Shown in pieces: positions 16,777 to 64,000 of a stretch of 64,000 bases of DNA. The translations under genes and the position numbers were made by a program. Origin of the DNA: Bolinopsis microptera (lineage: Eukaryota > Ctenophora > Tentaculata > Lobata > Bolinopsidae); assembly GCF_026151205.1 (NCBI RefSeq), contig NC_087074.1:11193226-11257225 (forward strand), read 5' to 3'. The stretch's first letter is position 1; the number at the start of each line of letters is the position of its first letter. The notes under the pieces were generated by a model, which was given only the letters and a program-made list of their open reading frames with translations, searched no databases and was not told where the DNA came from.

Positions 16777-19700
16777 CTGAAGTGTACATTTTGTTAAATT
16801 CAAGAGTTGTAAATATTTAATTTTTTGTATACATAATACATCGATTTTATTTTAATTCCTCTCTATTTTATTTGTTGGGATTGGTTGTTGTTTCACGTAA
16901 TATTTTAAAATCAGCCCCAGTCCCGTAGTAAATATGCAGGGTCATTGACAACATTTCATGCACCGTAACATTCACTCTACCATCTAGTATCGGGTATTAT
17001 ATCGACCCCATGGTGTGTACAAAACTGCCCCGGTCACATGACAAAGTTGAAAGTGGTCAAACGCAAATGAGTTTGTTTATTGTTTGTTGAGGCCTGTCCT
17101 TCACATCATGTGCAATATATACCAGAGTCGGCCCCCGCGCGCGCGAATGAAAGCATTTGCGAGTGCTGATACGAAGGAAAAAGGTCGCGCGCTTGCCTAC
17201 TTATCCTTTCGTAGACCGTATTTGCACCTGCGACAATGTTAATCATAGTAACGAACGGTTTGGGTAAATGCCAACTCACCGATTCTTTTGTATGGTGGCT
17301 TGAAGTCCTCCTTGAGAATATCATAATAGCAGAACAGTGAATTGAGCAGATGATCAGCCAGGGGGGAGTGAGCAAGGTTTAATGAGTCCATGGCAGCTCG
17401 GAATTGCCCGCTAGGTCGACCAATCGACACTTGTAAAACTGAAGTTTCTACGTGGTACAAAAACTGAGGAATAAGGTAATTTAGGAGATAATTTAGGAGT
17501 TTCCACAAACCAAAGTGAATGAAATAATATCAGCTAGCTATTTTATTTAGTGATATGAATAACCGCCCTATAAATAAGGCAGAGGGTATGCAATGTTGTG
17601 TGTAAAGTTGTAATATCCTGATAATTGATGTAGTTGCGAATATTAGCAAAATCACTTCGTTGTTTAACAAGTACAAACCATGTTAGGGTCGGTAGCCAAC
17701 AACTCCAACACGATGACAGTTGCATCTGGAATATTCCTCCCTTGGTGCAGTAAATTAGCCAGAGTCAGAAGAGGCACAGGTCGGTTCTCTAAATCCACTA
17801 CAGCGAGCGCGCGGCGCGTGCACTGCATGGCGGGACCAAGGTCGAATGTAAAGGTTCGGTGATACATTGCAGCAAGGTGGTAGAGTACCCAGTTATTTGG
17901 ATCCTGTAAATAGAGAAGAGTTATTAGATTCAGTGACAATACTTTCCCCTCTCTCTCTCCACAGTCGTGTATAATTGGGAAAACCTTTTAGCCTTGACGG
18001 TTATCTTTTCTGATTTTACAAATGGCATGCAGCCAAACTACAATTATGAGATTCCTTTTGACGTTAAAAGTAAAAGGGAATTAAATGGTTTTCTCAATGG
18101 AGTTCAGAGCGTTTGTTACGGCTTAGATAAAGATAATAATAATAATGCTGATAATTGTTAAGATATGCCTTAAAAACAGCTATGCCCAAAGCCCATCGAT
18201 GCCCAGTTGACCAAACGTTGAGAAATAAATGGTCCTCCGATGTTGATTTTAGAACAAGGTGATGCAGATGTCCTTTTGAAGTATGTTTGACAGACATCTG
18301 ACAGCTCCTCTAAATATCTCCTTGAGATGAGACTGCAGAGCTCCTCAGCACCAGTGCTAACACCGTCATGGTAGAGCAGAGTAGAGGAAAAGTAGAGCTC
18401 CTCAGCACCAGTGTTAACGCCGTCATGGTAGAGCAGAGTAGAAGAAAAGTAGAGCTCCTCAGCACCAGTGTTAACACCGTCATGGTAGAGCAGAGTAGAG
18501 GAAAAGTAGAGCTCCTCAGCACCAGTGTTAACACCGTCATGGTAGAGCAGAGTAGAGGAAAAGTAGAGCTCCTCAGCACCAGTGTTAACACCGTCATGGT
18601 AGAGCAGAGTAGAAAAAAAGTAGAGCTCCTCAGCACCAGTGTTAACACCGTCATGGTAGAGCAGAGTAGAGGAAAAGTAGAGCTCCTCAGCACCAGTGTT
18701 AACACCGTCATGGTAGAGCAGAGTAGAGGAAAAGTAGAGCTCCTCAGCACCAGTGTTAACACCGTCATGCAATGGTAGAGCAGAGTAGAGGAAAAGTAGA
18801 GCTCCTCAGCACCAGTGTTAACACCGTCATGGTAGAGCAGAGTAGAAGAAAAGTAGAGCTCCTCAGCACCAGTGTTAACACCGTCATGCAATGCAATGGT
18901 AGAGCAGAGTAGAGGAAAAGTAGAGCTCCTCAGCACCAGTGTTAACGCCGTCATGGTAGAGCAGAGTAGAGGAAAAGTAGAGCTCCTCAGCACCAGTGTT
19001 AACATCGTCATGGTAGAGCAGAGTAGAGGAAAAGTAGAGCTCCTCAGCACCAGTGTTAACACCGTCATGCCTCATGGTAGAGCAGAGTAAAGGAAAAGTA
19101 GAGCTAAATCTAGATATCCAGGACTATTATAACAGACCAGATAAAAAGATAAACAGCCGTTGAGGTAGTCACTTTATTTCTGTTTACCGGATAAAAAGGG
19201 TTGAGAATATTAAAACACCTGACCACAACCAGCACACAACCAGCACACAACCAGCACACAACCAGCACACAACCAGCACACAACCAGCACACAACCAGCA
19301 CACAACCAGCACACAACCAGCACACAACCAGCACACAACCAGCACACAACCAGCACACAACCAGCACACAACCAGCACACAACCAGCACACAACCAGCAC
19401 ACAACCAGCACACAACCAGCACACAACCAGCACACAACCAGCACACAACCAGCACACAACCAGCACACAACCAGCACACAACCAGCACACAACCAGCACA
19501 CAACCAGCACACAACCAGCACACAACCAGCACACAACCAGCACACAACCAGCACACAACCAGCACACAACCAGCACACAACCAGCACACAACCAGCACAC
19601 AACCAGCACACAACCAGCACACAACCAGCACACAACCAGCACACAACCAGCACACAACCAGCACAGAACCAGCACAGAACCAGCACAGAACCAGCACAGA

Positions 19701-22700
19701 ACCAGCACACAACCAGCACACAACCAGCACACAACCAGCACACAACCAGCACACAACCAGCACACAACCAGCACACAACCAGCACACAACCAGCACACAA
19801 CCAGCACACAACCAGCACACAACCAGCACACAACCAGCACACAACCAGCACACAACCAGCACACAACCAGCACACAACCAGCACACAACCAGCACACAAC
19901 CAGCACACAACCAGCACACAACCAGCACACAACCAGCACACAACCAGCACACAACCAGCACACAACCAGCACACAACCAGCACACAACCAGCACACAACC
20001 AGCACACAACCAGCACACAACCAGCACACAACCAGCACACAACCAGCACACAACCAGCACACAACCAGCACACAACCAGCACACAACCAGCACACAACCA
20101 GCACACAACCAGCACACAACCAGCACACAACCAGCACACAACCAGCACACAACCAGCACACAACCAGCACACAACCAGCACACAACCAGCACACAACCAG
20201 CACACAACCAGCACACAACCAGCACACAACCAGCACACAACCAGCACACAACCAGCACACAACCAGCACACAACCAGCACACAACCAGCACACAACCAGC
20301 ACACAACCAGCACACAACCACCACACAACCACCACACAACCAGCACACAACCAGCACACAACCAGCACACAACCAGCACACAACCAGCACACAACCAGCA
20401 CACAACCAGCACACAACCACCACACAACCAGCACACAACCAGCACACAACCAGCACACAACCAGCACACAACCAGCACACAACCAGCACACAACCAGCAC
20501 ACAACCACCACACAACCAGCACACAACCAGCACACAACCAGCACACAACCAGCACACAACCAGCACACAACCACCACACAACCAGCACACAACCAGCACA
20601 CAACCAGCACACAACCACCACACAACCAGCACACAACCAGCACACAACCAGCACACAACCAGCACACAACCAGCACACAACCACCACACAACCAGCACAC
20701 AACCAGCACACAACCAGCACACAACCAGCACACAACCACCACACAACCAGCACACAACCACCACACAACCACCACACAACCAGCACACAACCAGCACACA
20801 ACCAGCACACAACCACCACACAACCAGCACACAACCAGCACACAACCAGCACACAACCAGCACACAACCAGCACACAACCAGCACACAACCAGCACACAA
20901 CCAGCACACAACCAGCACACAACCAGCACACAACCAGCACACAACCAGCACACAACCACCACACAACCACCACACAACCACCACACAACCACCACACAAC
21001 CAGCACACAACCAGCACACAACCAGCACACAACCAGCACACAACCAGCACACAACCAGCACACAACCAGCACACAACCAGCACACAACCAGCACACAACC
21101 AGCACACAACCAGCACACAACCAGCACACAACCAGCACACAACCAGCACACAACCACCACACAACCACCACACAACCACCACACAACCAGCACACAACCA
21201 GCACACAACCACCACACAACCAGCACACAACCACCACACAACCAGCACACAACCACCACACAACCAGCACACAACCAGCACACAACCACCACACAACCAG
21301 CACACAACCAGCACACAACCAGCACACAACCACCACACAACCAGCACACAACCAGCACACAACCAGCACACAACCACCACACAACCAGCACACAACCAGC
21401 ACACAACCACCACACAACCACCACACAACCAGCACACAACCAGCACACAACCACCACACAACCAGCACACAACCAGCACACAACCAGCACACAACCAGCA
21501 CACAACCAGCACACAACCAGCACACAACCAGCACACAACCACCACACAACCAGCACACAACCAGCACACAACCAGCACACAACCAGCACACAACCAGCAC
21601 ACAACCAGCACACAACCACCACACAACCACCACACAACCAGCACACAACCACCACACAACCAGCACACAACCAGCACACAACCAGCACACAACCAGCACA
21701 CAACCACCACACAACCACCACACAACCAGCACACAACCAGCACACAACCAGCACACAACCAGCACACAACCACCACACAACCACCACACAACCACCACAC
21801 AACCAGCACACAACCAGCACACAACCAGCACACAACCAGCACACAACCAGCACACAACCAGCACACAACCAGCACACAACCAGCACACAACCAGCACACA
21901 ACCACCACACAACCAGCACACAACCAGCACACAACCAGCACACAACCAGCACACAACCAGCACACAACCAGCACACAACCAGCACACAACCAGCACACAA
22001 CCAGCACACAACCAGCACACAACCAGCACACAACCAGCACACAACCACCACAGAACCACCACAGAACCACCACACAACCAGCACACAACCAGCACACAAC
22101 CAGCACACAACCAGCACACAACCAGCACACAACCAGCACACAACCAGCACACAACCAGCACACAACCAGCACAGAACCACCACACAACCAGGTCACACAA
22201 TTCGTGAACACACTCCTCTTAACAGAAACAGTAGTTGCACAGTAGCTGATGAGTGGCAGGCTTGAGGGTACATCATTGTCTAGCACCCTAATAACCAGTG
22301 GAACTTGTACTAGGAATATAATGGCAGAGATGAAATCAGCTACACCATTGCGGAGATAAAGGGTAGATGAGAGAGTTATTTAAATCGATTTAAGGGGACA
22401 TAATCTGTTCAAAGTTATCCATTAATTCAAATGATTCACGGAAAAGCACAGTCTTTCTGTATGTTTGTTGTAATCGAAGATCCTTAAACTCTTAAAGCAG
22501 CTAAGTTCAAATGTAGAGAAGTGAGAGACAGAGGCCTTGTATCCTGCAAGGTGATAATATGATATGGAATTATTACAATGGTGATATCTGAACCTCTAAT
22601 CGTTCTTTAGAATATTAGCACTGCCCCATTGTTTCACTAAATGGCGATTAAGCAAGATTAGGCTATGTAATGGCTACCAAGTGTAGACACGATTCTCCTG

Positions 22701-35529: not shown

Positions 35530-37273
35530 ATGCCCTTTCATGGATCTAGACCTGCTAAACGGAGATCTCTGCACAATCGATTTGCTGTGAGAGTTAAAGA
35601 TATGAAAAAGTTCAGACACCGTGACTCATCGTAAGAACCTACATATATTTAACTTTAAACGTCGTTACATTACCATTCTTGCTTTATAAATATCATCTAA
35701 AATTTGTTGTATGAGTATCTGTATCTATCCACTTTAACATTAACTTTTAATTTCACTTTCAGTACCGATGACTCGATCCTTACAGATCAAGATTCCCTGA
35801 ATCTCACTCAACTTTCGCGGTGCCTTAACGTACCATTAATCTCTGCTAATCTAGACGAACATCCATCAAATTCTACCGGGTATTCGATTAACCCCCAAAA
35901 TATGCGTTCCACCAGCGGTGGTGGAGACGACAGTGACAGCTCTGATTCTAATGACTCCGATTCTGGTAACTCTGATTCTGATGACTCCGATTCTGGTGAC
36001 TCTGGTGACTCTGGTGATTCTGGTGACTCTGACGGTGATGACAATAACAATAGTGACAACGATTCTGACAGTATTCCCGATACACCTCAAGTTCAAACCA
36101 ATACAAACCACTCACGCAACCACATGTACTACCGCTCAGGTACGTGTTGATTTGATGTATTATTATTGAACTTCATAATCGACAATTTAGTCATACAAAT
36201 TCTTATCTACATGCATTTTATTAAATTTAGTGATGCAATACTGGCAGAGCACAATCACAAATCATCCCCCATAACGCTCAGGTAGATACAGAGGCATGTT
36301 AAAATATCTCGCCGCTCTACATTATAGTTCTACAGCATTTGTTTGTTTTAAATGCTGATGAAATCCGTCAACAGAGCAGTAACTTTGTCAGCAGAGAGTT
36401 AAATAACATAGATATTGACTTAGATTAGAGCGACAAAATTCAGGACGAAGAAAATCTCAGTTAAATGGAGAACAAAGAAGAGCCTTCGATGTAATAGAAG
36501 GTATGTGCTCAGGAAATTATCATACTACAACACTTTTTTTAGGAGCAAGCCCTTAGCCCGGGGACAGGAAAAAGCTTCCTCCTAAATACAGTGATAGCCC
36601 ATCATCGGTCACAGGGCCACATAGTATTAGCAACTGCCTCTACTGCTAATGCGTCATTGCTTTTAACGCATGGACGCACAGTTCACTCTCAATTCAAAGT
36701 CCCGTTAAATATTCACCGTGACTCCATGTGTAACATCAACAGAGGAACAAGCCTTTCAGATCTCCTATGCAATACGCATATTATCATCATAGATGAAGTT
36801 ACGATGCTAAACAAAATGGTCATTGAGGCAGTCGATCGTACTCTCCAGGACATAAGGAAAGTGTGCAAACCATTCGGTGGGATACCTGTGGTAATGTCGG
36901 GGGACTTCAAACAGTGCCTCCCAATAGTTCCGGGTCAAGGTAGAAACGGTATTTCCTCATCCATACTGAAGAGATCCCTTCTCTGGAAAGGCCTTGAAAA
37001 ATGCACCTTAACACAATCGATGAGACTTAGACCTGGATTGGAATATTGGCATAAGTATCTTGAAGATCTCGGTAATGGAGTACTTAATAACATGTCTGAT
37101 GATGTAGAACTCAAACACGTTGAAATAATGCCTTCCATCAACGAACTGATTAATCGCGTCTTTCCTGATCTTTACTCTACTCCATTGGATAATGTCATCC
37201 TTTGTCCACTTAATTCTTCAGTAAACGCAATCAACGACATGATAATTGACGAAATTCCAGGACAGTCAACAAC
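35530..37273 (+). CDS. Pif1/Helitron-type helicase gene, 5' part
   Basis: Four plus-strand exons fit in phase: 35530-35630, 35763-36139, 36429-36500 and from 36550. The start MPFHGSRPAKRRSLHNRF is basic. Exon 2 holds an acidic Ser-Asp/Gly-Asp repeat. Exon 3 ends LNGEQRRAFDVIE, the usual entry to a Pif1-like helicase. Exon 4 carries a P-loop (SPGTGKS), GRTVHSQFKVPL, Walker B (IIIIDEVTM), DRTLQDIR, VVMSGDFKQCLPIVPG and LTQSMRL. These are the motifs of Helitron helicases, but the Rep nuclease that precedes the helicase in Helitrons is not present upstream. The reading frame runs without a stop into an inserted LINE at about 37273. The last intron is only 49 bp, the least sure junction. The source may be a transposon or a helicase captured from one. 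Confidence 0.65.
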
Positions 37274-39257
37274 GTTTGGATTTAGGCAATCCCATTCTAC
37301 ATCTCATGCAGTCAATTACTCTGTAGATTTAATTACAAAATCTCTTAAACTCAAGAATCATGTTCTAGGAATATTCATTGACTTAAGCAAAGCCTTTGAC
37401 ACTATCGACCATTCAACACTACTTATAAAATTAGAGGGCTGTGGAATTAGAGGAGTAGCAAATAACCTTATAAAAAGCTACTTAACAAATAGACTACAAT
37501 ACACCGAAGTTGTGGGAGAAAAATCAGACACCCTATCTATTCAATTTGGTGTCCCGCAGGGTTCAATACTTGGACCTCTCCTATTTCTCCTCTACATGAA
37601 CGACATCTCAAACAGTTCTAAACTAGGATCATTTGTTACATTTGCTGATGATACCAATATATTTGTTGTAGGAAAAACAAAACGTGAGGCCTATGAACGT
37701 GGAAATAAGCTTCTTTCATCATTGCAGTCTTACATGCGAGCAAATAAGTTACATATAAATATGTCCAAGTGCTGCTACATACACTTCAAGCCTCCCATGA
37801 AAGGTTCTAAGTCAGAGACTCTATCAGATGATGAAGTAGGACTTACTATAGACAACTTTCCGATAAAAAAAGTTTCATCCACTAAATTCCTCGGAGTTAT
37901 AATTGATGAAAACCTTTCATGGGAAGAACACATTAAAGCCCTTAAGCGAAATCTAAATCATTCCACTTCCACCTTATGTCGACTTCGCTGCTCCCTTCCA
38001 GAATTTCTACATCAACAACTATACTATACTTTGTTTGAATCCCATCTCTCTTACTGTATATCTGTCTGGGGTGGGGCAGCGAAGCATCGTATAAGCTCTC
38101 TGTTTACCGCCCAGAAGTACTGTCTTAGGGTTATGTTCGGTGATAGGGAGGCTTACCTTGATAAGTTTAAGACCTGTGCACGTACCAGACCAATAGGGCA
38201 CCAAAGACTTAACAACAAGTTTTTCATAAAAGAACATACTAAACCGCTATTCAAACATAATAATATCCTAGCTATCCAAAATCTCTATACATACCACTGT
38301 TACCTCGAGCTCTACAAGATAATGAAATTTCGTGCTCCAATATCCTTACATGAAGGCTACACATGCTCGACAAGGAAGCCGACCCTACTTATTTGTCAGG
38401 CTGACCCACCTGATAACCATAATACAAGATCAACCAAAATTTTTAACATGATTACTCCAAAAATTAGAATGGATGACTTTACCATGAGTGTGATGTGTTT
38501 GCGGGGAAAGCTTAAACGTGCACTATTAAATAATCAACACAGCCACGCCCCGCTTGATTGGACAATCAAAGATTTTGACTGCAACAATATTGTCTTCGAA
38601 AGATCACTACTTGCTGGTCACACACATGTCAGCGAAATTCCCCTAGTCTAGTGTTTTCCAAGTCTTGTTCTGTGAGAAAAGTATGTGTGAGAAAGTCTTT
38701 AATAAAATAAAATGAATGTATATTTTTGAATTTTTAACATTTAATTTGATAATGCAGTATAAAGAAATTTTTAATTAGCACTGTATAGTTTAAGATATTT
38801 ATATTAGCTTATTATAACCATTGATACAACGAACATAATTTTTCAACAGCTCTCCAATATCCATCCTAAAGTTGCATCTTATATCCTCAAACTACACAAT
38901 TTAAACTTAGGCATATATATAGTGTAGACTTTCTGTCACAACAAGACTGTAACCCATAGTAACAAACACAAACAGAACCCCTAATGTCTGCTAACAATTT
39001 TCTTCTGATCCTCATATGAGCCCTGTCTCTAAAAACTCAACTGAACTAGCGTTTTGGTGTGTGCAAAAGCTTTCAGGCACGCACATTCCCTGCCCCGTTA
39101 GTTGCCTGTCCCTTCAAAATCAAACTAACAGTCAAGGACAAAAAGTCATACACCAAATGAGCATTATATTTTTATAAATTGTTTTACATCTCTTTACTCT
39201 GTAAAATGTGCTAAAAATTAAATTTCTTGTTTCATTGAAAAATTTCTTGTTTCATTG
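37273..39257 (+). mobile_element. CR1/L2-like LINE fragment inserted in the helicase gene
   Basis: A 5'-truncated non-LTR element starting inside its reverse transcriptase at FGFRQSHSTSHA, then GIFIDLSKAFDTIDHSTLL, GVPQGSILGPLLFLLYMND and the catalytic FVTFADDTNIFV, with an ordinary C-terminal LINE tail ending TAG at 38649-38651. The 3' end carries two copies of aatttcttgtttcattg (39221 and 39241), a short terminal repeat of the kind seen in CR1/L2 elements. The start happens to be in frame with the helicase, so one 686-codon frame from 36591 spans both. Further helicase sequence resumes right after the element. Confidence 0.8.
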
Positions 39258-51301: not shown

Positions 51302-53071
51302 TCACAAGTCGCCATATTCAAATGTCCAGCTTCTGTCCACATTTGAGCTCATCACTATCTCGTTATTCTCCATAGCAAGATGATCCTCCCAACCCATCGG
51401 GATGAGTTTGGATATCCCACAATTTCGAGGCCTCATAGCGTTCTCATTATCCTCGAATTTGAAGTCTGCTTTAGATTGGACCATGTCCGGAGTGAAGGGA
51501 TGTCCTATGTTGTTAATTATCTGCCGAGCGTTCCACCGGAAACGTTTCACTGCAGCCTTGCTGTCATCAGTGAATGTTACCAAGTTCTTGCGCTCCGCCA
51601 GAAGTTGTTCAAGTTTACTTGACTCAATAGTCCAATCACCGGACAGGCCAATGTTGAACTGCTGAGTGGGGGAAGTAGGGTCGTACTTGCTCCCTCCTAG
51701 GTAGGTCTTACCTTTGGCTGCTTCAACTAGATCGAAGGAATTTCCACTTTCGTCGTTGTAGAGATTGCAGTTTGTCAGGGACCAGGTTCCAAATATGTCG
51801 ATATCATTGAGTCCACCTAGTATGCGTTCCATCTTGTTGTCCACCAAGTGGTAACTGGGGTATTGGAAGGAAATGAACCTACCATAGCTGGTAAAGAACG
51901 GAGATGCTTGTTCCTTTGAGTCCACCGCTGTTAATTTCTTCTTTTTCTCCTTGATCATAATGTATTTCCCCAACTCCTCATGCTTTAGGTATATTACCAT
52001 CTGTACCTTCCTGAATGCAGCTTGATCTCCAATTGAACCCGGTCCAAAGTTGGAGACAAGTTCAAAGGCACCAGAGGACAGTGCAACGACTCCCTTGCAA
52101 GCTGCACCGAGGAAAGCGCACTTGTTCTTCGCAGTACCCACATTCTTCCTGTTAGCGTTTGTAATCCCATACCTCTCACCATCTACAAACTTCAGCTCTT
52201 TTCCGCTCACTCCACCCTCTACAGGAGTGTAGTAGGCATTCGCTCTGTCATAGTCGTAGAAAATCCTTGGGAAGTATGCTTTCTTAATGATCGCATCACT
52301 GCACTTGGATCCCTTGGTTGTAAGCCAACTCCCGTCGTTAAACTCACCCCAGCTGCTCCCATAACTCTCTTGCAGTAGCCACTTGTCCTTGGTGTATCCG
52401 ATGATGGAGTTAGCGTGGGCACAGCCATTAGAGCACCGCTCACCAGGTTCCACGCTCTTCTTACTGAAGCACGTTGTAACTGGACCATCTTGTAGTGCCT
52501 CCATGAGCTGGGCTTCAGTTTCGGCGTTTCCTGTTCCGGCAACAATAACGAACTGATCATGAAGGGTATTATTGAAACTGGCAGGATGTCTAGCACCGCA
52601 TTTAGCAAAACAAGCCGACTTCCCCTCTCCTTCTCCGACACATTGCTTCTTTGTAAAAGGCACCTCATCTTCGGGCACAATGACACCATTCTGTTTTACT
52701 TGAGTTGTAACAGAGTAGGGTTGAACTCCCACACAGGGTCTCCCAGCACAGTTCATGAAGTTCTGGATAGAGTAAGGGATGTGATTCTCCGATACAAGCG
52801 CTATCCTAGCTTCTAGAGTCTGAGTACCAGACACCCAGCCACAGGCCGGACACGAGCCCTGGTTCACAGATTTATGCATGATACCCTTCTCCCTCAGATC
52901 TAATTCCTCTGGCAGAGCCTTTGTGCTATCAGGGTCTACCATGGCATCTGGCTCTTCTTCAAATTCTTCCTCCAGTTCAGGCTCTTCGTAGAGGTCCGTG
53001 TCATCCGTAATACTTAAAGGGTCAGTAGTGGTAAGATTGATCACACCCAGGATCACAACTACGAGCCTCAT
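51302..53071 (-). CDS. papain-family (C1A) peptidase-like secreted protein
   Basis: One uninterrupted frame of 589 codons. Residues 1-16 are a signal-like leader, followed by an acidic stretch (about 24-46). The papain fold follows, with NQGSCPAC (Gln71, Cys77 at the nucleophile position), SIQNFMNCAG (QxxxxC block), CAHANSIIGY (His219) and SYGSSWGEF. The KNSW block that carries the catalytic Asn reads QESY, so Glu235 stands where Asn is usual, and Gly78 replaces the Trp after the nucleophile. The propeptide is short, with no ERFNIN-type region seen. After about residue 270 there is a C-terminal region of about 320 residues that I do not recognise. It may be a weak peptidase or a binding pseudo-enzyme. 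A CTAG acceptor-like site sits 10 bases before the ATG. Confidence 0.75.
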   Translation of the reverse strand: MRLVVVILGVINLTTTDPLSITDDTDLYEEPELEEEFEEEPDAMVDPDSTKALPEELDLREKGIMHKSVNQGSCPACGWVSGTQTLEARIALVSENHIPYSIQNFMNCAGRPCVGVQPYSVTTQVKQNGVIVPEDEVPFTKKQCVGEGEGKSACFAKCGARHPASFNNTLHDQFVIVAGTGNAETEAQLMEALQDGPVTTCFSKKSVEPGERCSNGCAHANSIIGYTKDKWLLQESYGSSWGEFNDGSWLTTKGSKCSDAIIKKAYFPRIFYDYDRANAYYTPVEGGVSGKELKFVDGERYGITNANRKNVGTAKNKCAFLGAACKGVVALSSGAFELVSNFGPGSIGDQAAFRKVQMVIYLKHEELGKYIMIKEKKKKLTAVDSKEQASPFFTSYGRFISFQYPSYHLVDNKMERILGGLNDIDIFGTWSLTNCNLYNDESGNSFDLVEAAKGKTYLGGSKYDPTSPTQQFNIGLSGDWTIESSKLEQLLAERKNLVTFTDDSKAAVKRFRWNARQIINNIGHPFTPDMVQSKADFKFEDNENAMRPRNCGISKLIPMGWEDHLAMENNEIVMSSNVDRSWTFEYGDL

Positions 53072-54010
53072 CTTTTTGTCCTAGGTGCTGTCGAGGAGTT
53101 GATGGAACGAACTGCTAAATGAAAGTTTTTCAAAATATCAGTGTTGTGTAATAACTAAGTCAGTAAGTCAGTTAATGATGCACATTGCTCGTGTATATTT
53201 GGTTATCTGTGACCTAGTTAAGCACTAAATTCAAGGGCAAGGTTCGAATTGTGACTTTCACCGATGTGAATGTCAAAACAAAGATCAATGAATAAAGAAT
53301 CTGTTTTAACAGTGGATGATAAATTGGAGAATTATGGACGAAAAATCGGACAATGAATATTTTGAGGCCATAGATATGGATTATGGTGATAAATAAAGGC
53401 AATTAGCATTAAGCAAGATACTTCATCTCACTGTATGTCCATGCTTTAAACGAAATTAGAGTTATAGGAGCGTATTTGAGGACAAGACATCGCTGAGATG
53501 ATAACTACCAACTATAACTACTACTGCAAGGGTCACCTTTAAGTATGAAGCTGTTTACTGTTAATTACTTAATTACTGGCGCTCCATTTCTAAAGTTCTA
53601 ATTACTGTTTAATCTATCATGGTCATGGGTTATTTGTCAATGTCTCATTTAAAACCCAACAAGTGAAGTTCATTGTACTTAATTTAACATCGTAGCACAA
53701 TTAATGGGTACAACTAACAGTGATAGATCGTTGTTTATGTTGATAAATACTAATGATAATAATTATGGGATAAATTTTCTACCCTAGGCTTATCATAAAT
53801 TGAAGGGCCTAACAATTCATTAAAAATGTCAGAAAGGTGATAAACTGTCCTAAGGACATGATGGTGCGATAAGAGTTGGAATATCTTAAACGGTTATAAA
53901 TTGGTTCGTCACTACTTGGGTGGATAATTATTAATTATGGATGGTAATGTGGCACCTTCTTCATCCAAACATCTCGTACAAGATGCTTGTGGCATTATAT
54001 TATAATTATT
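53072..54010. other. non-coding spacer
   Basis: AT-rich, no exon recognised. It should hold the promoter of the 51302-53071 gene. A missing 3' exon of the TIR/trefoil gene could also lie between here and 54888. Confidence 0.35.
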
Positions 54011-54163: not shown

Positions 54164-54249
54164 GTTTTGGAAAATTCCGCCATATTTTTCCCGGTCATTA
54201 ATTTTCCCAGTCATAAATTAACCCGCTATAATATTCCCGAGTAAGGTAC
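54164..54249. mobile_element. TA-flanked MITE, partial second copy
   Basis: It repeats the right two thirds of the element at 54011-54131, from tggtgggttttggaaaattc to cccgagtaaggta, with small differences. The left terminal repeat is absent. Confidence 0.75.
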
Positions 54250-54888
54250 CATTTTTATCAAGTCATTAACTAATTTCTAATCATCAGCTTCTTATTAAGA
54301 GAGTTGATAACTGTTCTGTTGACTTTTGTACTAATGTTTGGGTGGACACAGAATTAGATTCAAGAAACTCTTATTAAATTTAAATTAATGAAAAGAAATA
54401 AAACCAGATTCAAATTTCCACCCTTTAACGACAAATTAATGACCGATTTGAAAATTATACTCAGTCCATCTATTTGGGGGATCACATGGTTAAAAAATAA
54501 GTGTTCGGTATTTCTTTTCAAGTATATCAATATGAACGATTTTTTGCACTATCAACTTTCAAGTCAATTTTGATGGTCTGAAGCTGCCGTTTTATTAGTC
54601 CACAGTCGGAGTTTACAGTACGTCAGTTGAGAGCGGCAACTGCCCGTCATTTTAACACATTGGATGTCTTACGAGCATGTTAACAACTAATTTAGGAGTT
54701 TAGGAGGAGCTAAAACACACAGTTGTTGGTTAACAAAGCTATACCCATAGATTAATAAACAAAAAAGATAGCTGTGTCACAATTTCTAAATAGCAGTAGA
54801 TATAAGAATGTAGAGATGTGCAGTTCCTCACGCCCTTTAGCAATAATCATCAGCAGGAACAGAATATCTGCTTTCAACCGAAACTTAC

Positions 54889-55527
54889 CACTGGAAGTAG
54901 AACTAGAAGCCGAACCATCAATCTTCCACAAAATTGGAGCAGACATATCTGACGTCACGTCCACCCAGTAGGACCCACCTTTCCTTTGAATTCTGGAGAC
55001 CAAGTACGTGTCTTTCGAGCGACCCTGAGACTTCTTAAACCTGTACCCGATCCCTCCTGCCACACTCACAGTCTCTATACTCCAACACTCGTCATCAGCA
55101 TTGTGGGGAGTTTTGTGAACCAGAGCCCTTGCGTCTCCATTAGATTGGTTGTTGCTGTGCACTACCAGCATCTTGCCACTACCAGCACCGTAAATGGAGA
55201 CTATTGATATAATGTTGTACCAAAACTGCTGCTTTCTTTTAGTATGATTAGAAGTTTTAGCTGCCATCGGATATTTGTTCAAAGATATCATTAAAAATGG
55301 AATTTGATATTTTAAAATACCAGATTTAGACTTGATGTTGAAGCAGTGTTGACCGTTGTGTTGTATAGGGATGATCTCCCAGCGAGCACTATCATCATTG
55401 AGATCGGTATGTACCCAGCGGGAGTGACCGTTTCTCTCATCATTTGCAGTCAGGGAGTAACCAGAGGCAGGCCCATCCAACATTTTGATATGGTACCCAT
55501 GATTAGGAACTGGAGTGAAACCTGAGA
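54889..55527 (-). CDS. beta-trefoil lectin-like exon
   Basis: A single 639-bp exon, phase 1-1, with donor AGTG/GTAAGT. It has three internal repeats of about 70 residues, each with a G-Y/K start and a Trp near the end (YHIKMLDGPASGYSL...ARWEII; SGKMLVVHSNN...ECWSIE; DTYLVSRIQ...ILWKID), the usual signature of ricin-B-like trefoils. If the donor were not used, the frame would run on for about 45 residues with a hydrophobic segment to 54752. Confidence 0.65.
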
Positions 55528-58500
55528 CTGGATACAGCACATCAAAAACTTGTTCATGATAAGCGAGAACGAGAAATAACAAGAATTTGTGGTTCTGGCA
55601 TTAATTGAGAAACAAGGATAGTAAGGAAATGGGAACAAACAAGTTGAAGACAAAAAATATTGATATCAAAAAGAAACAGAGCAAAAACAATTCTTTTTCT
55701 TCATCATATTAATAACACGTCAATAGATGTGGATTCTGGTGGAGAGGCGAGGCATATTTTTTGACACGTGATGACGTGATAGCCATTATCACGTGCTAAA
55801 AATATGCATGTAAAGAACTGTATCTCACCCAGTATATTCAGGATATCAGATTCTTTATTTTGTGAGATGTTTGGATAGTTAATTCGATTTCAAACTTTAA
55901 ACAAGAAAACAAGTTATAATTATAAATGATGAATTTTCGTTTCGAATACAAAAAATTACCCGACTAGTTTTATCAACATTTTAGATAGTTGTGAGTTTTC
56001 TTTCAGATATGAGAAGAAAAGGTAGGTTAGATGTTACAATAACCAACCTTAAATGGAAAAGAGAGGATAGCTTTTTTTTCGATTGGCACCCTAAAATGAT
56101 TTCAATCCTAACAAGGACATAAGAAGTAGTAACTAAGAAGTAGTAACTAAGAGGTAGTAACTAAGAGGTAACAACTAAGATGTAGTAACTAAGGGGTAGT
56201 AACTAAGAGGTAGTAACTAAGAGGTAGCAACTAAGAAGTAGCAACTAAGAGGTATAGTAGTAAATAGTATAATACATTAGTAAATAAAAGGTAGTATATT
56301 TATTTACTAACCAGAAGATGCAGCACTAGCAGATGGCTTTGTAACTGTAAAGTGTTCCCATGCATCGGCCTTGCTCCTGTTACACTCCAGTTTCCCGTTC
56401 CCTTGGGCTGACAAGTATTTCCCGTGGTATGACTTGAGAGTGAACTTGTTCTTGTCAATCCAGCCAACGGTGAAGTACTCCCAGCCTTGGGCCTTGTCCC
56501 TGTTCCATTGCAGGGAGTGGTTCTGCTGAACTGAGGGTTACAGTTTAAGTGGATTAATCACGTGGGTACCTATCACAGAACATGTTGAAAAGATGTTTTT
56601 ATCGTTGAGGTCTTTTTTAAAGTCTAATTTTTAAGGTCTTATTTAAATAATGTTTTTATTGCTGAGGAAAATATCAGAACAAAGTGAAACTCACTTGAAA
56701 GATATTTCCCATGTTTAGATTTGAGAGCCACAGTGTTGGCCTTTATCTCCACAACTTCTATAGTCTCATCTCCACCCAGGGATTTTGAACTGCACGTGGC
56801 ACTTGAGTTTGGTGCTCCAATGAAGGTGCCATGGTGACTCTTTATACCCAGCTTCCCTTTCAGTGCTCCTCCTGAACTAGCTGGAGCTGAAAGAAATTGA
56901 GGGTGAATTCTTGAAACTAATAGTCACAACACACTCAGTATTTATTCAGTCACGTGATAACTCAACTAGTAACCAAACAAATGACTAAACCATCTAATCG
57001 CGTTTAACACGCTCTACAGCCCTAATTCTTTACCCATATCTTCTTTCTGTCTAACCCATACAAGGGCTCCTTTAGACTTTTAGACAAATGGTTCTTCACA
57101 GTCATTTGTTACTCTCCCTTGTCGCCACTTTGGTCCTGTGTACATGGACAATGTACATTGGTGTACACTGTACAACGTACAATGTACAATGTACAATGTA
57201 CAATGTACAATGTACAATATACAATGTACAATGTACACCTACTGGTTCTTAGGTTTTGGACGTGTTTTTACAACCTCTTGGCTTCAGATCCGTACGGCGT
57301 TATTTGAATCTTTGGTTATTAAAATGTGTCCTGTCAGATTGATGTTGTCTCTTTGCTTCTCTAGTAAAGACAAATCTACGTATTACAACACAAATGAGTT
57401 GTCCTGATTTCCAAGATAGTGCTCAACTAATAATATAATAAAAATAATAAACGGTTTGGGTAGTCTCTAACTTTACTATCAAGTAGCAGTTAGCGATATC
57501 ATTTATACCTCAACAAGATTCAACTAGTTTAACTAAGTCTTGTTTTTTTATTGCAAGGCTTGTGTTTAGCGCGTTTATTGTGGAACTTTCTGGGTACAAT
57601 ATTTTGTTAACATTTTTGTATTCTTTCATACTCAGGTCTTAATGAAAATTATATGAAGAATATTCCACAGAAATGAAATGGTACAGTTTCAGAAATAAAC
57701 CTTAAAGCACAGTTTTAATTACGACCTTGCGAGTAAAAGATATTTTTTCTGAAGCGATTGATGATCTTAGTTTACATGAAATATATTTTGATAAGCGCCT
57801 AAAATAAAAAATGTATACCTTGTTTTTTGGGTGCCGCTGCTGGTGGTGGTGTTGGTTTAGGTGCAGCTGGTGGTGGTGTTGTCGATTTCGGTGCAGCAGG
57901 TTTCGGGGGTGGCTTCACTGGTTTGAAACCTCCTCTAGTATCTGAAATAAAAGTAATGTTTTAGAATGAACCGACCGTCAAAAGAAGAATTCGTTAATCG
58001 TTAGACAGAAACCTTACAAATAGATTAAACCAGACTTAAAGAACATGAATCAATCCCTCCAATTTGGCTACATCTCTCCAACGGACAGTCACCTAGAAAC
58101 CAAATAACATCAATCTCTACAGGTATTCGACTCTACGGTAAAGCGTTAAGAGGAAAACAAGGCGAACACTTTGCACATTTCTTACTTAGTCATTCTGCGA
58201 ATTTGCGCTCCTCCCTTTAATCATCTTCACCATCTCTATTCCTTACTTTAAATCTGCGCTCCACTCCCTTAATCATCTTTACCATCTCTATTCGTACTCT
58301 AAATCTGCGCTCCACTCCCTAAATCATCTTTACCATTTCTATTCCTAACTCTAAATCTGCGCTCCACTCTCTTAATCATCTTTACCATCTCTATTCCTTA
58401 CTCTAAATCTGCGCTCCACTCCCTTAATCATCTTAACCATCTCTATTCTTACTCTAAATCTGCGCTCCACCCCTTTAATCATCTTTACAATCTCTATAAT

Positions 58501-61500
58501 ACTTACTCTAAATCTGCGCTCCACTCCCTTAATAATCTTTACAATCTCTATACTTACTCTAAATCTGCGCTCCACCCCTTTAATCATCTTTACCATAATC
58601 TATTCTTACTCTAAACCTTGAGCGGGAACTACTGGTTATCAAATATTCATGTATTCTCCTCTCTCGCAGATCAAAGGTGGGCATATTGTGAACTATTAAG
58701 TATTACGTTAGGAGCTAGTGCTCTCTAGCGTAAAGAGGTAAAGGTGCCGGTCACCTCTCACTATTTTTAAACTCACATTATTGTTGAGCATTATTTCGCT
58801 TGAGGCTTACATTTGCTTGAGGATAGAAGCCTTAATAACAGTTTCTGAAGAACCCCTGATGTTAGACACAAGGTCTGAGGTCACGATTTGGTCTAAATTT
58901 AGCCAGGAATTTGTCATAATGAGGCCAGGAATTGCCGAGATTTGGCGTGGAACCAAACAGGTCTGTAGGCCGGAGGGGTTTCTCTTTTTCCAGGTTTTAG
59001 TTTGCCATGATAGACATATTTAATTGCAGCGATTAAAGTTTCGATTTACAACATATCTTTATGTATTCACAGTATTTATTTATTAGTGAAGGATAATAAT
59101 TTTCTGACGTTTTTTCTAACCCAAGCTTCGACTCAGATCAGGACTTGATTAATTAATTTTGCTCCTAAAACAAGATATATAACATAATGGTGTGAATATC
59201 CTGAATAATTTTAACGATACATAGTGTTCAGTGTTGTAAGTACGTAATACGTATAAGTGTGCTCCAACAAATAACCTGACCAAGTATATGCGTAGCTGCT
59301 GACAGTTGGTGCTTGCACCTGACCTACCACACTTACTTTGCTCTCAGTTTGTTTAGTGTTGGTGCTTGCACCTGACCTACCACACTTACTGTGCTCTCAG
59401 TTTGTTTAGTGTCCACTACTGTTGCACCTGACCTACCACACTTACTGTGCTCTCAGTTTGTTCAGTGTCCACTACTGTTGCACCTGACCTACCACACTTA
59501 CTGTGCTCTCAGTTTGTTTAGTGTCCACTACTGTTGCACCTGACCTACCACACTTACTGTGCTCTCAGTTTGTTTAGTGTCCACTACTGTTGCACCTGAC
59601 CTACCACACTTACTGTGCTCTCAGTTTGTTTAGTGTCCACTACTGTTGCATCTGACCTACCACACTTACTGTGCTCTCAGTTTGTTTAGTGTCCACTACT
59701 GTTGCACCTGACCTACCACACTTACTGTGCTCTCAGTTTGTTTAGTGTTGGTGCTTGCACCTGACCTACCACACTTACTGTGCTCTCAGTTTGTTTAGTG
59801 TCCACTACTGTTGCACCTGACCTACCACACTTACTGTGCTCTCAGTTTGTTTAGTGTTGGTGCTTGCACCTGACCTACCACACTTACTGTGCTCTCAGTT
59901 TGTTTAGTCTCCACTACTGTTGCACCTGACCTACCACACTTACTGTGCTCTCAGTTTGTTTAGTGTCCACCACTGTTGCACCTGACCTACCACACTTGCT
60001 GTGCTCTCAGTTTGTTTAGTGTCCACTACTGTTGCACCTGACCTACCACACTTACTGTGCTCTCAGTTTGTTTAGTGTCCACTACTGTTGCACCTGACCT
60101 ACCACACTTACTGTGCTCTCAGTTTGTTTAGTGTCCACTACTGGACTTATCTTGCTGTTTTTATTTCTCATTTAAGAGTTTACCACGGAAAAGTAGCATG
60201 AGTTCAGCTTTGACTCAAGTTCAATCAATCCAGCAGTTCACATTATCTGACTTTACTGTGTTAATAAGGTATTCAGTAGTGTTACATTTTTTACATTTTG
60301 TAGATTCCAGGAGATGATGTGATATCTTTATTTACAACGTTTTCAGTACTATATTGTTTTATTTTTGGAGGATAGCTGCATTACATTATAACCTCTTTTG
60401 TGTATGGCTGATAAACATAATAGTATCAGACTGAAGAGTACGTCTGGTTGGACCGGATTTTCTAAAAACCAGTAGTTCGAACCAGATTTTTCATTGTGTA
60501 GAGACAACCCGGCCACAAAAATAGACAACAGTTCCTAGATTGTTGTTTACAAGGTTACTCTCTATCAACTTCCTGAATATTTGTAAGATTTGCAAGGCTT
60601 TGGCTGAAACCCTGAGAAAGGACTCAAACCAACAAGCTGTAACATTATAAGCCCTACAAAAATGTTGACTTCTATAAGGGGTGCAAATTCCCGAAATGGA
60701 AGTTAAACGGAACCATGCCCTGAGCCGCCGACACCCCTTTGTTACCTTGTTAAAACTTCGATTGTTAACAGATCTCCAGACTATTGGTAACGTAATCGGA
60801 ACGTTTATAGTTCAAGACTTAAGAGCCAAGACATTGTTAAAGAGACAACGTAAATTTTGTGGTAATTTTTATTGGTTTACAATTTCAATTACTCAGAAGT
60901 TGGGAGAAATTAGTGTTACTTTTGCTCTTTTTTAGCATCCATTCATTTTATTGTTGCTGACAGTTGTACCGGATACCTGCAAATGCAATGTCATATGGCA
61001 GATACCTCCCGTAACGGCGAAACCCTAGAAATTCTTTCTTTACTTTTATAATAACACACCAACTAATAAAAGGCTCGTAACTCGTGTGCTCAGCTCTCCG
61101 GTTTTGTTTAACTTATTGATGTAGTTTTTGTATTTACAAAATGTATTATGAATTTCTCATGCCAGTAATGAGTCTTGAATAAGTTTCGCTTTAAAGCTTC
61201 AACACCTGATGGTTCAAGTTGTAAATATACGCACCGCATCTAGAGGGGTTCGGTCTTCATCAGAACTTTGCATAATTTGACATATGGACAGAGCTTTTGA
61301 TGATGTTGCGGTGATAAGGTTCTGATGGGCAATTCTACTGTTGATGAAGATTCGCACGACTGTGTTACCCGTGTGAGCAGCTTCTTTACAAAGAAGCTGC
61401 TGAGAGGAAGTTGCAGGGATTTGATTTCAGATCAATTACCAGAGACTGTCGAAATAGTTATTTTTATCAAACAAGTATCTCACCATCCCAACTGTAGAAT

Positions 61501-63546
61501 CTTTTCTTGTCTCTTGCAACCATTGCTTTTGTTTGTATGGTCGATTGCCTCAAAAGAGTGACTTAATTTATAATTAAAGAATTAAGCTAAAGATTTTCAA
61601 TATAGAACCATTCCGTGATCAAGCTAACATAAACCCGCTAATTAACTAATCTAGCACAAGGTCTGATGCACACATAGGGTCTAATAAGCGACCTTCAGCT
61701 CCAGGATGGCGACAGATCTTCTCCCCGCAGACTTGATCTACATATCAACAGAGCAGTACATCACCTCAACCTTTCCTCCTTTCAATAACACGACCAACAT
61801 GACAAGCTCCAACATGACAAGCTCCAACATGACAAGCACTACTGGTACCTATCTCATGACAGGTACCTTCACCACATCATGGGTCAGCTTCTCCAGTGGC
61901 ATTCCTCACGTAATACTTGGTGCTAACGGTGATCCTCTCCGGGTCTCCTCTGGAGCTGATATCTTTATTGGAGTAATCCTGGTGACGTGTCTTCTGTTTG
62001 GCGTTCCCTCTAATATCATGTCGCTCATCTACTTTGCTTTCAAGCAGAAGAGCGAGGGGTTGTTGTTGGTGCTTTATGTAACGATCAGCTGTACGGATAT
62101 CTGTATCTGTATGTTCATCTGCCTGTTACCATGCTACTTTTCAATGGGAGGAAAGCTACACTCTTCAAAAGCATCGCGTAAGTATTTTTAAAATCTCGAC
62201 TATTTATGCTATTGTGGTGCTTTGCAACGCAATATTAAAAGGGTTCTACCCACGATTAAATGATTTGTCGATTTGGTATTGTTTTCCTTTTTAAAAGATG
62301 TTCTGTTGGCTTATAACAAACAGGAGCTGAAAGCCCTATAATTTCAGAATGTGTGAAACATGGGAGTATCTCTACAACATTCTCTCCTACTTCTCAATGT
62401 TCCTGGTCATGCTCCTCAGTGTCACCCGGACCATAGCTATCATCGAGCCTTTCCGCAAGATAAACACATCCTCTATCTACTATATCATAGCTGGTTATGG
62501 AGCATTCTTGTTAGTTCCTAACATTCTGTTGAAGATCTTCTTCGAGACAACCTGGTACATCAAGGAGCTGGGTTACTGCACGTCCTCCTCCGACCATGGA
62601 AGGGCCTATGCGGTGCTGCAAAACTTGTTTCTGGTCATCCAGGTAGCCTTGCCGTCTGTTATAATCTTTTTAAGTTTCACCTTGTCGGTTGATAGACTGC
62701 TCAGACGTCCGAAACCGCAGATGGGAGCATGGCGGATTAGGCAAAGGGTTTCAGTGACCATATCCATGTTTACCGCTCTATTCCTTTTCTGGAACCTCCC
62801 CTTCTTCACCAACATGTGCCTTATGTTGATTATACAGGCAATGCCAAATGGAATGTACCCAGAACCCTTCTTCACCTCCATGTTCATGGGATCGTACTCG
62901 TGGATGATAGGCAAGGTACTGTTTGTAGTTCTCAATGCTACCTGTAATCCTATCCTCTACATGTGCAGGATGAAAGGATTTGCTATCTGGATAGGACTAC
63001 GTAATGAGAAGACAAACGAGGGTAAAATTAAAAACAATTTCAAGTATCTAATGCCGATGACACAGGCACTGACCTTTAACCCAGCCATACAAAATGTCAG
63101 GTCAGCCTCAAGGCGCATTATTTCCTTCAAACAACCACCAAGAAATCATTGAAAATACGCATTATCTCGACTAAATGAACCCGATATCCTTGAAGGGGTG
63201 TCTTTCAGGAATTCAAACTGCTTGAAGAGCATCAATAAAAAAAGGATAATTTGCATTTGAATATCTGGGAGAGAGAAAGGATCCTGTAGCATGACCTAAA
63301 TCCTCGATAACATGCATCAAGTTTTCTACAACAGTAAAACAAGTGCGTTAACCAGTACATACCAACATTAAGCTTATTAGCAATCTCCAACAAAAGTGCA
63401 TTTGCTTGAGCCGCTATCCTCCCTTCATCGTCCTCCAAACCTCTGAAGTCAGTCCAGAGTTTACCCGCTGTGATAACCCCCAGCCAGCCGCTGGCCCGGT
63501 ATTGGCCTCCGTCTTTAGACTGTTCTTGTACCATGCAGGGTACTAT
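54889..63546 (-). CDS. TIR-like plus fascin-like plus lectin-like trefoil gene (partial)
   Basis: Minus-strand exons in phase: 63546-63363 (0 in, 1 out), 57941-57819 (1-1), 56886-56695 (1-1), 56530-56312 (1-1) and 55527-54889 (1-1). The first encodes a TIR-type C-terminus (VPCMVQE, SGWLGVITAGKLWTDF). The next is a proline/lysine/alanine linker (KPTPPPAAAPKK). Two exons encode fascin-like beta-trefoil repeats (SHHGTFIGA, SKHGKYLS, SYHGKYLSAQGNGKLECNR). The last encodes a trefoil of about 210 residues with three Trp-ended repeats (ARWEII, ECWSIE, ILWKID). Linkers rich in Ser/Gly (ASSG, AASSG, SSTSSG) sit at phase-1 borders. The 5' end lies beyond the window and the last exon was not found. Joining the TIR exon to the rest across 5.4 kb rests on phase and strand only. 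Likely a cytosolic or secreted recognition protein, by inference. Confidence 0.55.
56110..56262. repeat. 14-bp tandem repeat taactaagaggtag
   Basis: About ten copies of a unit alternating aagaagtagtaact and aagaggtagcaact, in an intron of the trefoil gene. Confidence 0.85.
56312..56886 (-). CDS. fascin-like trefoil exons
   Basis: Exons 56886-56695 and 56530-56312, phases 1-1 and 1-1. Repeats of the form K-S-x-H-G-K-Y-L-S alternate with W-E-x-F-T-V (GWEYFTV, AWEHFTV), the pattern of fascin-type actin-crosslinking trefoils and related agglutinins. Both exons end in Ser-rich linkers. Confidence 0.7.
57164..57237. repeat. 7-bp tandem repeat acaatgt
   Basis: About ten copies of acaatgt (tacaatg), partly self-complementary (tgtaca). 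It lies in an intron of the trefoil gene. Confidence 0.85.
57819..57941 (-). CDS. proline-rich linker exon
   Basis: 41 codons, phase 1-1, made of Pro/Ala/Lys repeats (PPPKPAAPK, TTPPPAAPKPTPPP). The acceptor is TTTCAG and the donor is CAAG/GTATAC. Such low-complexity linkers join independently folded domains. Confidence 0.65.
58200..58612. repeat. minisatellite of about 57-60 bp
   Basis: Seven copies of a unit with aaatctgcgctccactccct then taatcatctttaccatctct and attc. Copies differ by small changes in length. It lies in the large intron of the TIR/trefoil gene. Confidence 0.85.
59280..60145. repeat. minisatellite with two alternating unit heads
   Basis: About fifteen units share gcacctgacctaccacactt then actgtgctctcagtttgttt and agtgt. 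Most carry ccactactgtt before it, four carry tggtgctt instead, and the array ends on ccactactgg. Intronic. Confidence 0.9.
60146..61705. other. non-coding stretch upstream of the GPCR start
   Basis: No gene is recognised on either strand. It is intronic for the minus-strand TIR/trefoil gene and should contain the GPCR promoter. Confidence 0.4.
61706..63152 (+). CDS. rhodopsin-type GPCR, two exons, nested gene
   Basis: Exon 1 is 61706-62177 (ATG to TCGC/GTAAGT). It has an N-glycosylation-rich N-terminus with three NMTSS copies, TM1 (IFIGVILVTCLLFGVPSNI) and TM2 (LVLYVTISCTDICICMFICL). Exon 2 begins at 62348: a conserved Cys before TM3 (CETWEYL), TM3 ending SVTRTIAIIEPF (no DRY), TM4, TM5 (LPSVIIFLSFTLSVDRLL), TM6 (TALFLFWNLPFFTNM), and TM7 with NPILYMC (the NPxxY motif). 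The stop is at 63150-63152. Seven segments fit class A; the ligand is unknown. The obvious donor leaves phase 1 while exon 2 needs phase 2, so either the junction is different, a tiny exon is missing, or one base is off. It sits on the opposite strand within the intron of the TIR/trefoil gene. Confidence 0.75.
63363..63546 (-). CDS. TIR-like domain C-terminal exon
   Basis: 61 codons with acceptor CACCACAG and donor GTTG/GTATGT. It reads IVPCMVQE, YRASGWLGVITAGKLWTDF, then a final helix with ALLLEIANKL. This is the IP-x-x-x-E...GWLG...GKLW-x-D-F end of TIR_2-type domains in invertebrate immune proteins. The rest of the domain would lie to the right of the window edge or in the next 450 bases, where I did not find it. 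Confidence 0.6.
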
Positions 63547-63567
63547 CTGTGGTGAAGTGGGTTGTGT

Positions 63568-63674
63568 TAGCATGTTAGCATGTTAGCATGTTAGCATGTT
63601 AGCATGTTAGCATGTTAGCATGTTAGCATGTTAGCATGTTAGCATGTTAGCATGTTAGCATGTTAGCATGTTAA
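63568..63674. repeat. 8-bp tandem repeat gttagcat
   Basis: About thirteen perfect copies of gttagcat, starting about 20 bp upstream (in minus-strand sense) of the TIR-like exon acceptor. Confidence 0.95.
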
Positions 63675-64000
63675 CGTGCCTGTAGCTCATCAGAACATTA
63701 TCAACAATTTGGACGACATGGTGCACCTTGGCTAGATTTCAGTGCACACAGCAACTATAAGTGAAGTTATAAAATATAAAATATTCGCTTGCTGTTTCGA
63801 TGGTCATTGAAAATATTTCAAAATTATTTGACAAAAACTGTTTCTTTAGTTTGTGTAAATAGTGTGAGGACTCGAACTACTCTATGAATTGTACTTATCA
63901 GTATTAACTGTCACATATAGAAGTTCAACCCAAAATTTGTATTTGATAACTTGCTGACAGGTAGCTTTGAGGCTCGTCAAAAACTTAACTTTTAATTGCA
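63675..64000. other. right edge, nothing recognised
   Basis: No coding segment or repeat is identified. If the TIR-like gene continues, this is intron or upstream sequence. Confidence 0.4.

Follow-up and report, generated by a model that had tools for sequence, protein, structure and literature searches.

A TIR domain, a CBM92-like trefoil and a ricin-like domain in one exon chain of the ctenophore Bolinopsis microptera: a candidate TIR-lectin sensor

Does a single gene of the ctenophore Bolinopsis microptera join a TIR domain to two kinds of trefoil and, if so, how might such a gene have been assembled and what might its product do? The question is raised by a stretch of 64,000 nucleotides (C3:11193226-11257225; referred to below as the window), for which an original prediction, made from the sequence without database searches, proposed a minus-strand chain of phase-compatible exons encoding a TIR-like end, a proline linker, a fascin-like trefoil and a lectin-like trefoil, built by exon shuffling into an unusual sensor architecture. 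We found a gene model of 10 minus-strand exons (66925..54687; Table 1) encoding 516 amino acids, with GT..AG borders at all introns and the frame kept throughout, in which a complete TIR domain is followed by the proline linker, the fascin-like trefoil, a ricin-like domain and the stop codon. With somewhat more belief than doubt, we read it as one gene for a cytosolic TIR-lectin sensor, in which glycan-binding C-terminal modules would cluster a TIR of the type that cleaves nicotinamide adenine dinucleotide (NAD). The genome searched comprised 264.65 Mb in 232 contigs: C1 to C13, at 15.2-26.2 Mb each, are of chromosome size and together account for 97.5% of the bases, C14 has 0.2 Mb, and the 219 contigs other than C1 to C13 amount to 6.6 Mb. 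A search for COX1, from which the mitochondrial code was to be read, gave no match. Coordinates beyond 64000 continue the window numbering into the fetched right flank.

Exon chain and splice joins

The span between 54889 and 63546 contains six exons with five joins between them, all in phase 1. Five exons meeting in phase 1 had been described for this span; the phase stands, but the count does not, and exons 8 and 9 can be read as one because intron 8 is open in frame. In the copy of these exons on C10 (see below), the frame of this intron is closed by stops. Over the whole gene, seven of the nine joins are in phase 1, the joins between exons 1 and 2 and between exons 3 and 4 being in phase 0. 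The clean splice sites reported earlier are present, as are linkers at the exon borders, which are rich in Ser, Gly and Ala. The chain as first drawn was phase-compatible but incomplete, lacking the three TIR exons to the right of the window, the terminal exon (54709-54687) and the AATAAA signal; extension to the right, which had been suggested as a check, supplied exons 1-3 and completed the TIR domain.

The genome search with the TIR recovered an intronless paralog on C2 (C2:20751498-20751944), 75% identical, the frame of which (MDLTPE...VDIKEGFSPVKPPLQKK) runs continuously across the four joins of exons 1 to 5, enters the linker (GFSPVKPP, against GFKPVKPP in the window gene) and then stops. 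The 36 nucleotides following the end of exon 4 in this paralog were compared with every minus-strand AG between 50000 and 63362 (n=965). The acceptor at 57941 was the best of these sites, with 28/36 matches against 18/36 for the runner-up, and among the 7722 AG sites of both window strands the next best scored 20. This best match indicates that, in an ancestor, exons 4 and 5 were already spliced together in a transcript, and chance is excluded for this join on the comparison of the two sequences; the predicted splice between the TIR and the linker (63363 to 57941) is thus reproduced by an intronless copy. The TIR domain is under purifying selection relative to the C2 copy (nonsynonymous divergence, dN, 0.175; synonymous divergence, dS, ~2.2 and saturated; ratio 0.08). 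A pseudogene was considered and rejected, given this ratio, the intact frame and the splice sites.

As the paralog ends within the linker, it does not prove the joins from the linker to the trefoil. The joins of exons 5 to 10 rest on consensus splice sites, matching phase, the presence of a terminal exon and the fact that no other start was found, and on these features a single mRNA is predicted to run on through the exons of the trefoil. Alternatively, there may be two transcription units, one for a protein with the TIR alone that stops within the linker or shortly past it, the other for a trefoil protein with an unrecognised start. Such an arrangement would account for the C2 paralog, which has only a TIR and a short linker before its stop. 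It would also fit the length of intron 4 (5.4 kb, between the TIR exons and the linker exon), which contains minisatellites and an antisense G-protein-coupled receptor (GPCR) gene, and the stop met six codons past the exon 5 donor on read-through; these last two features suggest that a TIR-only isoform may exist. Two transcription units nevertheless seem unlikely. The exon 5 donor is in phase 1 and exon 6 starts in phase 1 behind a pyrimidine-rich acceptor, exons 6 and 7 contain no Met codon, and a scan of 56887-63362 for exons with an ATG (at least 14 codons and a phase-1 donor with at least 4/6 consensus positions, shorter or non-coding first exons lying outside the scan) gave one candidate, which was not hydrophobic.

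TIR domain and C-terminal modules

The profile search of the translated exons that had been suggested as a check placed TIR_2 and Fascin over the Pfam cut-offs and RicinB_lectin_2 below. In the spliced protein, residues 20-140 matched TIR_2 at 5.9e-14 (53 bits against a cut-off of 28), so that what was first seen as a TIR-like end belongs to a complete TIR domain; exon 4 translated alone gave no TIR match in Pfam. A single-sequence search of the PDB with the TIR gave no match, PADLOC returned only SAVED_TIR at 0.014, and NCBIfam nothing meaningful. Residue E89, which we take to correspond to the catalytic Glu of TIRs that cleave NAD, is kept in all four TIRs aligned; a weak alignment with the TIR of Cat1 (E 0.062) pairs it with the Glu of CWDEL. 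NAD cleavage by this domain is predicted from the kept glutamate. The TIR of the protein as modelled might instead act purely as an adaptor for assembly and leave NAD uncleaved. In animals, adaptor TIRs often signal through assembly alone, and the closest TIRs in the PDB were matched only at E 0.06-0.5. We regard a pure adaptor as decidedly unlikely, as all four aligned relatives have the glutamate characteristic of TIRs that cleave NAD, and the ctenophore TIR2 proteins group with TIR-only proteins of non-bilaterians, not with Toll-like receptors (TLRs) or MyD88 (PMC11797021).

The protein is probably cytosolic, since neither a signal peptide nor a membrane span was seen in its 516 residues (best 19-residue mean hydropathy 0.91). 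The best 11-residue mean in the first 30 residues was 1.1, against 3.2 and 3.0 in two leader controls, and a scan of 56887-63362 yielded no hydrophobic leader exon. Likewise, as regards features of TLRs, no leucine-rich repeat matched in Pfam at E≤10.

Two TIR genes form a divergent pair on C11 (L015 994-1764, minus strand; L016 1486-2235, plus strand). In each, the exon continues past the TIR for about 140 conserved residues, and these tails are 75% identical to each other. The pair was considered as independent TIR-trefoil fusions and dropped as evidence, the trefoil look of the tails having been judged by eye only. The tails gave no Pfam match, an AlphaFold predicted local distance difference test score (pLDDT) of 34, hhalign probabilities of 0.6% (fascin-like set) and 3.1% (lectin set), and a best E of 0.063, to an unrelated chain, in the PDB profile search; neither matched the fascin-repeat hidden Markov model (HMM), whereas 558 and 587 of 1000 shuffles, respectively, scored.

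The first of the two C-terminal modules matched Fascin (7e-10; 39.5 bits against a cut-off of 23.1) and FRG1 (3.8e-9) over the Pfam cut-offs; in the protein as a whole, DUF569 (6e-7) was also over its cut-off and DUF7910 (4.6e-6) below. In the PDB, its closest matches were the CBM92 modules of GH18 proteins (7zoh, 6.8e-14; 7zoi, 2.1e-9), followed by fascins (1.8e-6) and hisactophilin (0.092). The fascin-like trefoil originally proposed is therefore upheld at the level of Pfam, but the module is nearer to CBM92 than to fascin. Repeats 2 and 3 read NRDKAQGWEYF and NRSKADAWEHF, giving WExF and Arg in two of three repeats, whereas repeat 1 lacks both and reads DETIEV. WExF is kept here where the aligned repeats of the fascin chain 6b0t lack it, and it occurred in 6 of 11 fascin-like repeats picked from the genome and aligned. 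The glucose bound by CBM92 stacks against the WExF Trp and forms bonds with the Glu and, at some sites, with a nearby Arg; WExF, with its Trp and Glu, is present in each of the three repeats, although some members lack one or two, and native two-site CBM92s still bind yeast glucan, less strongly (PMC11039641). The window module shares with 7zoh and 7zoi the three-repeat trefoil and, in repeats 2 and 3, WExF with Arg. It differs from them in its setting: CBM92 modules, which bind beta-1,6-/beta-1,3-glucan, are appended to secreted microbial enzymes, whereas the partners of this one are a TIR and a ricin-like domain, with no carbohydrate-active enzyme. The same article names one animal genome for CBM92, that of a termite. 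Bacterial relatives of repeats 2-3 were sought by pattern in a collection of genome contigs (genome_contigs), and none of 32 matches was confirmed. A six-frame search of the ctenophore genome with Pfam Fascin found two places, both on C1, and missed the split exons of the window gene.

By sequence, the proximity to CBM92 makes the binding of glucan or another sugar, at putative sites in repeats 2 and 3, likelier than actin bundling. A cytoskeletal protein, in which the fascin-like trefoil would place the TIR on actin and the ricin-like domain would bind protein rather than sugar, would be in keeping with the Fascin and FRG1 matches over cut-off and with the hisactophilin match. Fascin has four tandem trefoils, as against one fascin-like trefoil in the window protein, and this difference, the retention of WExF with the closer match to CBM92, and the presence of related modules in secreted-looking proteins of this genome make a cytoskeletal role very unlikely.

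For the second module, RicinB_lectin_2 matched at 0.0064, with 17.6 bits in the whole protein and 20.6 in the domain alone, below the cut-off of 25.6; the same profile matches two of the six ricin-like family members at E≤1. Ricin-B lectins carry QxW repeats, and none was seen by eye in this domain, the repeats of which end in ARWEI, ECWSI and ILWKI. The lectin-like trefoil of the original prediction thus retains a ricin-like match, but one under the ricin-B cut-off and without QxW. A trefoil fold is likely from the sequence. The fascin-repeat HMM scored the domain no better than shuffles (445 of 637 scored shuffles reached as high), and the ricin-like and fascin-like families showed no profile similarity (hhalign 0.25%).

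Copies of the lectin exon pair and neighbouring features

When the genome was searched with both modules, 54 matches were obtained, including the pieces of the window gene itself. Among the 23 loci taken into the DNA-level comparison, three lectin sites align with the introns included (Table 1), and the TIR exons were matched only by the C2 copy. In the C10 copy, introns 8 and 9 (90.0% and 93.8% identity) are as similar as the exons (92.0% and 90.4%), and 22 of the 23 nucleotides of exon 10 are identical; this copy begins 4 nucleotides outside the 3' splice site of exon 8 and is preceded, in the same open reading frame (ORF), by a signal-peptide-like stretch. The C3:6403k copy has exon identities of 93.0% and 90.5% and an intron 8 identity of 75.7%, and a Sushi ORF lies just upstream on the same strand. 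In the C8 copy, intron 8 is 87.5% identical, with a large gap; an F5/8C ORF lies about 1.7 kb downstream, with a reverse-transcriptase-like ORF in between, so that the two are at most a candidate single gene. A more distant lectin and F5/8C share one ORF on C7. On C7 and at C3:12.3M, candidate genes carry both module types on one strand, with the lectin ahead of the fascin-like module, an order opposite to that in the window gene. The copying of the lectin exon pair with its introns into other settings supports, for this pair, the exon shuffling first proposed for the gene.

Signal peptides in the related proteins were read by eye. On C1, one ORF (L057 414-1586, minus strand) combines a signal-peptide-like start, a fascin-like trefoil and an aerolysin-type ETX_MTX2 domain (1.4e-9); a second locus (L058 197-1293, minus strand) resembles it and has a fascin-like trefoil, with the leader in a separate, overlapping ORF.

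The antisense gene nested in intron 4 encodes a rhodopsin-type GPCR. Its second ORF matched 7tm_1 (6.1e-9) and the first had no significant Pfam match; both are read here as one gene. Tandem-repeat arrays were seen by eye in the long TIR introns, one of them just upstream of the exon 4 acceptor. A papain-family protease is encoded downstream of the TIR gene and in the same orientation, by a single ORF without a Pfam match at E≤10 after residue 252. Elsewhere in the window, a three-kilobase tandem repeat is open in all six frames, and one ORF passes, by eye, from a helicase-like part straight into a reverse-transcriptase-like part, as if a mobile element had landed inside another.

Table 1. Positions (window numbering) of the exons of the TIR-lectin gene model, of the window segments aligned with lectin-pair copies, and of neighbouring features.
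Feature	Position	Strand	Content
Exon 1	66884-66925	-	TIR; right of window (L009 3410-3451)
Exon 2	64523-64646	-	TIR; right of window (L009 1049-1172)
Exon 3	64164-64294	-	TIR; right of window (L009 690-820)
Exon 4	63363..63546	-	C-terminal part of TIR domain
Exon 5	57819..57941	-	Proline/alanine-rich linker (DTRGGFKPVKPPPKPAAPK...)
Exon 6	56695..56886	-	Fascin/CBM92-like trefoil, repeat 1 and start of repeat 2
Exon 7	56312..56530	-	Fascin/CBM92-like trefoil, repeats 2-3; WEYF and WEHF, each with preceding NR
Exon 8	55321..55521	-	Ricin-like domain, first half
Intron 8	55201..55320	-	120 nt, open in frame in window
Exon 9	54889..55200	-	Ricin-like domain, second half, and Ser-rich tail
Exon 10	54687..54709	-	Terminal exon, APPKLLN then stop
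AATAAA polyadenylation-type signal	54591..54596	-	90 nt past stop
C3:6403k copy	54858-55613	-	86.9% identity
C10:16627k copy	54247-55525	-	83.8% identity
C8:14328k copy	two pieces		91.1% and 87.7% identity
GPCR gene	61697-63152	+	ORFs 61697-62191 and 62331-63152
Tandem-repeat arrays	58200-58620, 59310-60130, 63566-63680	-	Last array upstream of exon 4 acceptor
Papain-family protease	51302-53080	-	Single ORF, ~590 aa
Three-kilobase tandem repeat	19110-22379		
Helicase-like/reverse-transcriptase-like ORF	36543-38651	+	

Proposed function and known TIR-lectin systems

If the 10 exons form one gene for a cytosolic sensor, the C-terminal modules would bind glycans on microbes, on ingested algae or fungi, or on damaged vesicles, the CBM92-like trefoil probably recognising beta-glucan or a comparable polymer of glucose by means of two Trp-Glu-Arg sites. 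Multivalent binding of this kind would draw the N-terminal TIR domains together, and the clustered TIRs may then cleave NAD or recruit partner TIRs, starting an immune or cell-death response. The domain combination suggests that the fusion could, inside the cell, couple the detection of foreign glycans to a signal for alarm or cell death. The sensor architecture read earlier at this locus keeps its TIR, its exon chain and the shuffling of the lectin pair, with the fascin-like trefoil recast as CBM92-like and the lectin trefoil under the cut-off.

Several results tell against a glycan sensor encoded by one gene. In addition to the end of the C2 paralog within the linker, the long intron 4, the stop past exon 5, the lack of WExF and Arg in repeat 1 and the subthreshold ricin match, all described above, the structural searches on the ricin-like family found little: a six-member profile reached a best E of 0.2 in the PDB, to a piwi protein (agglutinin 2x2s, 0.31), the homolog L042 reached 0.023, to the salivary peptide entry 7kc8, and AlphaFold gave this homolog a pLDDT of 37, compared with 34 for a C11 tail. 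The lectin cassette is under mild constraint only, with dN/dS values of 0.45-0.55 against its three copies. Finally, no other TIR gene among the genome-search matches has a trefoil match nearby: the close TIR genes number about six (C2, two on C11, C10, C9 and the window gene), and only the window gene has trefoils in its vicinity, although the TIR and trefoil searches score best candidates only, so that this uniqueness is no proof that the pairing is absent elsewhere.

Within the ctenophores, a comparison can be made with Mnemiopsis, which has 15 TIR2 genes, none of the TLR type; four of the 15 were upregulated after a second exposure to Vibrio, with no change after the first (PMC11797021). 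These proteins belong to the same Pfam family, TIR_2, as the window protein, but the partners named for their TIR are zinc fingers, EF-hand, lamin-tail, FN3 and, once, a death domain, as opposed to a trefoil and a ricin-like domain; the main text of that article nowhere mentions fascin, trefoil or ricin. Outside animals, Arabidopsis has four TIR/Nictaba genes (PMC5485960). Proteins of this PP2-A5 type likewise carry an N-terminal TIR and a C-terminal lectin and are linked to defence (PMC5485960, PMC12355970). Their lectin is the Nictaba/PP2 beta-sandwich, whereas the animal protein described here has a CBM92/fascin-like trefoil and a ricin-like domain, and no Nictaba/PP2 domain matched it in Pfam at E≤10. 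A single soybean protein combines a GNA lectin domain with TIR-NB-ARC-LRR (PMC6272470). In BH of Podospora and other fungal HET-lectin-fold proteins, a TIR-related cell-death domain is followed by a lectin fold, and in BH the lectin domain sets recognition specificity (PMC10890737); BH differs in having HET instead of TIR and a fruit-body-lectin beta-sandwich instead of a trefoil, and in serving fungal allorecognition. No animal TIR-trefoil or TIR-lectin protein was found in the literature searched, which was covered in part. TIR-lectin proteins are already known in plants and HET-lectin proteins in fungi; the animal case is apparently new in that literature.

A broader proposition may be put forward tentatively, and with more doubt than confidence: that exon shuffling, in a lineage devoid of Toll-like receptors, assembled an intracellular sensor of glycans from a cytosolic NAD-cleaving TIR, a glucan-binding trefoil of the CBM92 type and a lectin cassette shared as DNA with secreted lectins of the same genome. 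Such a protein would be the first immune receptor of the TIR-lectin kind in an animal, and the TIR-Nictaba proteins of plants and HET-lectin proteins of fungi would be its convergent counterparts. The young copies of the lectin cassette present exon shuffling at a stage at which the introns can still be aligned. A TIR fused to glycan-binding modules would offer a testable answer to the question of how such TIRs are activated, namely by direct sensing in the cytosol, as in the TIR-lectins of plants and the HET-lectins of fungi.

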